Shown: positions 31,107 to 31,850 of the stretch, in pieces
Layout: each line of letters begins with the position of its first letter
Position numbering within the stretch: the first letter of the stretch is position 1
Assembly: GCA_016219965.1 (NCBI GenBank)
Contig: JACRJM010000004.1
Coordinates: forward strand, 62,001 to 126,000
Length of the DNA stretch: 64,000 nucleotides
From: Candidatus Schekmanbacteria bacterium
Lineage (GTDB): Bacteria; Schekmanbacteria; GWA2-38-11; J061
Direction: 5' to 3'
Program-made: the position numbers and the translations under genes
Notes under the pieces: model-generated
Database searches by the model: none
The model's input: only the letters and a program-made list of their open reading frames with translations
What the model was told of the DNA's origin: nothing

Positions 31107-31574
31107 ATGGACGCTTATCTTGATATCGAAACTTCGTTCGATGGAGACATAACGATCATTGGAATTCACACTTCACGCGATGGGACTGTTCAAATTCTCG
31201 AACCATCATACGATGATCTTCGCATATATAAAATTCTAGAAAGTATTTCTGTGATTTTTTCATACAATGGAAATTCATTTGATATCCCTGTGATAAGAAA
31301 AAAAATCGGAATAAATATTCTGGAAAATATCAGAAGTGTTGATTTAAAAAATGTTTGCTGGAAAAAAAATATTTACGGCGGACTTAAAAAAGTTGAAAAA
31401 TATTTTGGCATCGAAAGAATGACATGCGATGTAGATGGGCGTGCAGCAATGATGTTATGGAAGTCATATAAAAATGAGAATGATGCAGATGCATTGGAAA
31501 AACTTCTTCGCTACAATAAAGAGGATGTTGAAAATCTAATTCAGCTTAGAAAAAAACTCGAAAATATTTTCTGA
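31107..31574 (+). CDS. RNase H-like exonuclease domain protein (YprB type)
   Basis: A 155-residue protein. The N-terminal L-D-I-E-T motif supplies two acidic residues (D6, E8), F-S-Y-N-G-N-S-F-D a third, and the Y-N-K-E-D-V-E-N-L motif near the C-terminus a fourth, the DEDD pattern of 3'-5' exonucleases. This fits the YprB RNase H-like family, which is normally fused to a TPR domain or stands alone. It is probably a nucleic-acid 3' end processor; the substrate is unknown. Ribosome site not evident. It follows nuoN by 33 bases and may be read through from it. Confidence 0.7.
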   Translation: MDAYLDIETSFDGDITIIGIHTSRDGTVQILEPSYDDLRIYKILESISVIFSYNGNSFDIPVIRKKIGINILENIRSVDLKNVCWKKNIYGGLKKVEKYFGIERMTCDVDGRAAMMLWKSYKNENDADALEKLLRYNKEDVENLIQLRKKLENIF

Positions 31575-31610: not shown

Positions 31611-31638
31611 TTGACACTGAAGAAATTTTAAATAAAAT
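31611..31638 (+). promoter_or_regulatory. Promoter of the tiny basic-protein gene
   Basis: TTGACA at 31611-31616 and TAAAAT at 31633-31638 are separated by 16 bases, close to the sigma-70 consensus. The resulting transcript would have a leader of about 65 bases before the ribosome site and would end at the strong terminator at 31850. Confidence 0.6.
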
Positions 31639-31710
31639 TACATATAACGAGTTGTAAAAGCAGTTAGAAGTTAGCTGTAAACACACAACCGAAAGGAGGG
31701 GTGAGAGAGA

Positions 31711-31788
31711 ATGGCAACCAAAAAGAAACCAGCTGCGAAGAAAAAAGCTGCGAAGAAACCTGCGAAGAAAGCTGCAAAGAAGAAGTAA
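31711..31788 (+). CDS. 25-residue Lys/Ala/Pro-rich basic protein
   Basis: A tiny gene with an excellent ribosome site (AAGGAGGGG, ten bases ahead of the ATG). The product begins M-A-T-K-K-K-P-A-A and continues with A-A-K-K and P-A-K-K repeats to a Lys-rich end. It has 14 Lys, no acidic residue and a predicted net charge near +14. It resembles the tail of histone H1-like and bacterial Lys-rich nucleoid proteins, so RNA or DNA binding is plausible. It stands alone between its own promoter and terminator. It is too short for automatic gene callers and could also be a remnant of a longer protein. Confidence 0.6.
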   Translation: MATKKKPAAKKKAAKKPAKKAAKKK

Positions 31789-31808
31789 CAGAGACATAAG
31801 AGATTTAA

Positions 31809-31850
31809 AACTGGGAGCGTTTGAAACATTAAACGCTCCCAGTTGTTTTT
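31809..31850 (+). terminator. Rho-independent terminator after the tiny basic gene
   Basis: A 14-bp perfect stem (AACTGGGAGCGTTT at 31809-31822 and AAACGCTCCCAGTT at 31831-31844) with an 8-base loop, followed by GTTTTT. It is one of the strongest terminators in the window and lies 20 bases after the small gene. Confidence 0.9.

Follow-up and report, generated by a model that had tools for sequence, protein, structure and literature searches.

The unit and its product

The window analysed here, a 64-kb stretch of contig C4 in the 3.58-Mb host genome, carries a compact unit composed of a promoter-like site, a leader, one short open reading frame and an intrinsic terminator. It sits between nuoN and a DUF6122/YdjM-like gene, with an RlpA-like part next, and the same arrangement is found in two other genomes of the phylum (G003 and G002, see below). 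The assignments to DUF6122 and YdjM come from weak Pfam matches of the window genes that lie below the cut-off. In the host, an RNase_H_2-type exonuclease gene (31107-31574, + strand) is placed between nuoN and the unit. Besides the NuoN/NuoM-type genes of the window, a second set was found at G000:C15:142858-147730, and the relatives in the phylum also have two. The features of the unit are as follows.

31611-31638 (+): promoter-like site TTGACA-16-TAAAAT, with 11/12 consensus matches, the top score in the scanned stretch
31645-31710 (+): 5′ leader, its start placed from the promoter, containing the ribosome site AAAGGAGGGG and GAGAGAGA
31711-31788 (+): Lys/Ala/Pro-rich, histone-H1-tail-like ORF of 25 aa (orthologues 23 and 24 aa)
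31809-31844 (+): intrinsic terminator with a 16-bp stem, then GTTTTT, the T-run reaching 31850

These features make up a single-gene transcription unit of about 200 nt. For comparison within the phylum we used the host and three other genomes, one from the same family (G001) and two from another family of the same order (G002 and G003). A preliminary description of the locus had reported a consensus-like promoter, a strong ribosome site and a strong 14-bp terminator. The promoter is borne out by its consensus matches and by a promoter-like site, TTGAC[T/G]-17-TAATAT, at the aligned position in G003 and G002 (alignment read by eye). The ribosome site was likewise recovered: AAAGGAGGGG precedes the ATG, with a slightly long GGAGG-to-ATG gap of 11 nt, and both orthologues carry AAAGGAGG at the corresponding place, as well as a terminator stem. 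The terminator is also present, with a stem of 16 bp and not 14; folded alone, its hairpin has an energy of -25.8 kcal/mol (z -8.2).

The peptide encoded by the ORF, MATKKKPAAKKKAAKKPAKKAAKKK, consists of 13 Lys, 8 Ala, 2 Pro, 1 Thr and 1 Met. Of its earlier characterization as an all-basic protein of 25 residues, the length holds, and "all-basic" is better taken to mean a lack of acidic residues, with Lys making up about half of the peptide. No Pfam or NCBIfam family was matched, although so short and simple a sequence can hardly score against profiles, and a comparison with PDB sequences gave no match. The peptide is expected to be disordered.

Two kinds of further candidate were rejected. 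The pattern K-K-x-A-K-K has seven matches in the host's own genome, three of them inside the 25-aa gene, and matches that translate in frame sit in ordinary longer ORFs. A Glu/Cys-rich ORF of 32 aa overlaps the gene in the +2 frame (31701-31799, + strand, starting with GTG at 31701); in the host it stays open as a side effect of the Lys/Ala codons, and stops lie inside the frame in both relatives.

Conservation within Schekmanbacteria

DNA searches with the unit identified G003 (E 2e-22, 89% identity) and G002 (E 5e-18, 87% identity), the alignments running from the last part of the leader into the start of the gene. The peptides of G003 and G002, MATKKKAAKKKPAKRKPAAKKKR and MATKKKAAKKKPAKRKAAKKSRKR, have 23 and 24 residues, respectively; length changes among the three peptides correspond to whole codons and the Lys/Ala/Pro/Arg composition is kept. 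The relatives have almost the same last ~30 bases of the leader, including AAAGGAGGGG and GAGAGAGA, and this close agreement of the start block stands out because the NuoN proteins of G003 and G002 are only 60-62% identical to that of the host. Between G003 and G002, the differences in the alignable first part of the gene are confined to third, silent positions (by eye), and as three orthologues are assembled, the case for coding selection rests on few substitutions. The second half of these two peptides is reshuffled and still rich in Lys/Arg/Ala/Pro, with one Ser in G002 (by eye). In G001, the contig carrying nuoN ends ~30 bases beyond nuoN itself and the next contig begins inside DUF6122. 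The break falls in the nuoN-DUF6122 interval, and therefore absence of the unit cannot be claimed for this genome.

The preliminary description had made its proposal depend on conservation of the reading frame and of the Lys content in related genomes, and both are kept in the two relatives in which the locus is assembled. The 25-aa ORF is thus a real, conserved gene, and we infer from the conserved frame and the accompanying signals that it is presumably translated. Neither G003 nor G002 has an ORF of the size of the RNase_H_2-type gene between nuoN and the unit; linkage of the unit to the gene upstream is therefore not fixed.

As the sequence is very short and simple, we considered whether it might be a chance ORF or a functionless relic. 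We applied an ORF filter requiring a length of 15 aa or more, a K/R/A/P/T share of 90% or higher and a K/R share of 40% or higher. Only one ORF in the window passed, that at 31711-31788 (+), and none did in 80 windows simulated with matching composition (40 first-order and 40 third-order Markov); the ORF exceeds chance expectation. Its position is kept across families of the order. In addition, four pairs of the terminator stem are changed on both strands relative to the relatives (positions 6, 7, 10 and 11 of 13). The hairpin has therefore been kept as a hairpin and its stem, judged by these compensated changes, is under selection. All of this makes a chance or relic origin extremely unlikely.

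A transcription unit this short, bounded by a promoter and a strong terminator, could also specify a small RNA, with the ORF incidental or secondary. A functional RNA had been named beforehand as the outcome that would overturn the protein reading, and we looked for one. The leader folds differ among the three genomes (z -2.2, -0.2 and +1.9), no RNA fold of the 5′ leader is conserved among them, and the sole conserved and covarying stem is the terminator. No Rfam match was obtained at the gathering threshold anywhere in the window. The frame, the start block and the composition are conserved, whereas the leader fold is not. We regard the small RNA as very unlikely, and the protein reading stands.

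A Lys-rich ORF with a terminator immediately behind it and co-oriented genes downstream is also what would be expected of an attenuator leader peptide; here, translation through the Lys codons would govern terminator read-through into the DUF6122/RlpA genes. Yet the terminator persists when the whole transcript is folded, and this fold offers no alternative structure that would open it. The distance from the terminator to DUF6122 varies, being about 61 nt in the host, 120 nt in G002 and 222 nt in G003, and the downstream genes are unrelated to lysine or alanine metabolism. Comparable units in other families also have unrelated neighbours. We assign a very low probability to attenuation.

Similar short ORFs in other bacterial families

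A pattern of the form Met-Ala-x-Lys-Lys ... Ala-Lys-Lys ... Lys-Lys-stop was run over 386 genomes spread across the domain. Matches occurred in 23 of the 386 genomes, and the reversed control pattern gave 0. Three of the 24 pattern loci were dropped, not being short in-frame ORFs by our filter, and true in-frame ORFs of 12-29 residues were retained in 21 genomes from 17 families, the family of the host included. Four more ORFs of this kind, with 31-37 residues, came from other sequence searches in further families. In one family (f22), three genera have versions of 15-16 residues of the MATKKKAKK type (MATKKKAKKATKKKK and alike; L087, L088 and L089). Each of these comes with a ribosome site and with a terminator of the form GGGCTGAA...TTCAGCC, the neighbours differ among the three genera, and 5 of the 9 genomes of the family match a stricter pattern.

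In a set of 27 such ORFs, a ribosome-site motif at a distance of no more than 20 nt was seen for all (27/27) in a permissive test run without a control. Terminators with a stem of at least 8 bp follow within 130 nt of 14 of the 27 ORFs, compared with 5 of 891 stretches drawn at random from these loci; here the G003 orthologue was scored as having none solely on account of a T-run that begins a few bases too late. Gene neighbours differ between families, and across the other families none is conserved, the exception being an FtsK-like gene next to two of the ORFs. These two are Lys/Ala ORFs of 12 residues (L094, in G337) and 15 residues (L101, in G066) from two different families. Each lies 220-300 nt upstream of a gene for an FtsK-like DNA translocase (identified by eye), which may point to a link with the chromosome.

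The simplest reading of these results is that there are many single-gene units sharing one type of product. Common descent and repeated origin cannot be told apart because the sequence is so simple. We give even chances to the broader proposal that stand-alone "histone H1 tails" of 12-37 residues would form a widespread, unannotated class of bacterial single genes, maintained within lineages and perhaps of many independent origins, each supplying a free Lys/Ala polycation that acts in trans on the nucleoid or on RNA.

Relation to H1-like proteins and proposed role

The peptide has Lys/Ala/Pro repeats (KAAK, PAKK, KPAA), a strongly basic character and presumed disorder in common with the C-terminal domain of HupB and the KPAA domain of AlgP/PhaF. 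Those tails, however, are long (the AlgP repeat region has 154 aa; PMC9239181) and are joined to a domain that is folded or helical, whereas the peptide described here has 25 aa and stands alone. With Chlamydia Hc2 and Bordetella BpH1 it shares a Lys/Ala-rich, repetitive H1-like sequence, but Hc2 has 165-237 aa with pentamer repeats (PMC2848022), and the peptide matches no Pfam family. Of the traits of the H1-like class, acid-free Lys/Ala/Pro-rich repeats are present, in both orthologues too, and a long repeat array or an attached folded domain is absent from the 25-aa peptide as well as from the orthologues of 23 and 24 aa. Based on its composition we call the peptide an H1-like tail, and a variant of the described H1-like proteins instead of a member, because it has neither the long array or partner domain nor a match to a curated profile. 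A longer protein of related character is encoded in the family-level relative (L072, G001:C93, 1353-2078, + strand); it has 241 aa, with a long Lys/Ala/Thr-rich H1-like N-terminal part and a DksA/TraR-like zinc finger at its C-terminal end (by eye).

Three HU-family genes were found in the host's own genome, and their products end without Lys-rich tails. Taken together, the H1-type tail sequence and the tail-less HU proteins make charge-based nucleic-acid binding by a free tail the most likely function. We think it probable that the product is an ultra-short, disordered, Lys/Ala/Pro-rich H1-tail-like peptide from a single-gene unit, which binds nucleic acid by charge without a globular domain. 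The unit would yield a 25-aa peptide with the composition of an H1 C-terminal tail, and this would neutralise and bridge the phosphates of DNA and possibly RNA, no globular domain being needed, and would serve as a free tail alongside the HU proteins that have no such tails. KPAA peptides are known to bind DNA in vitro (PMC9239181), the HupB tail with its PAKK/KAAK motifs is required for stable DNA binding (PMC5676037), and Hc2 binds both DNA and RNA (PMC2848022). From the composition of the peptide we infer a putative nucleoid- or RNA-binding role, in which 25 residues may bind too weakly at the salt concentration of the cell if the peptide is not abundant.

The charge argument holds for any polyanion, and the sequence fits equally well a real small protein with a partner other than the nucleoid, namely one that binds the ribosome or polyphosphate by charge in the manner of small basic ribosomal proteins or of granule components. 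Thx, a small basic ribosomal protein, has about the same length and the strong positive charge of the peptide but, unlike it, no Lys/Ala repeat. For polyphosphate, the KPAA-tailed AlgP associates with polyphosphate granules (PMC9239181). In the loci examined, however, the neighbouring genes showed no connection to ribosomal or polyphosphate functions, and such a partner appears unlikely.

Searches of the open full-text literature found long H1-like tails only and no stand-alone mini-tails; the titles and abstracts listed for the phylum contained nothing relevant. Standard gene callers and profile libraries are likely to miss ORFs of this kind. If translated and functional, their products would be among the shortest conserved bacterial proteins with histone-tail composition. 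They would then show that a tail can earn its place as a gene even with no folded DNA-binding domain attached, and would offer a minimal, easily synthesised system for studying the organisation of bacterial DNA, RNA or polyphosphate by lysine-rich tails. Because such ORFs recur across many families, the question can be addressed in cultured bacteria, beyond the uncultured Schekmanbacteria.
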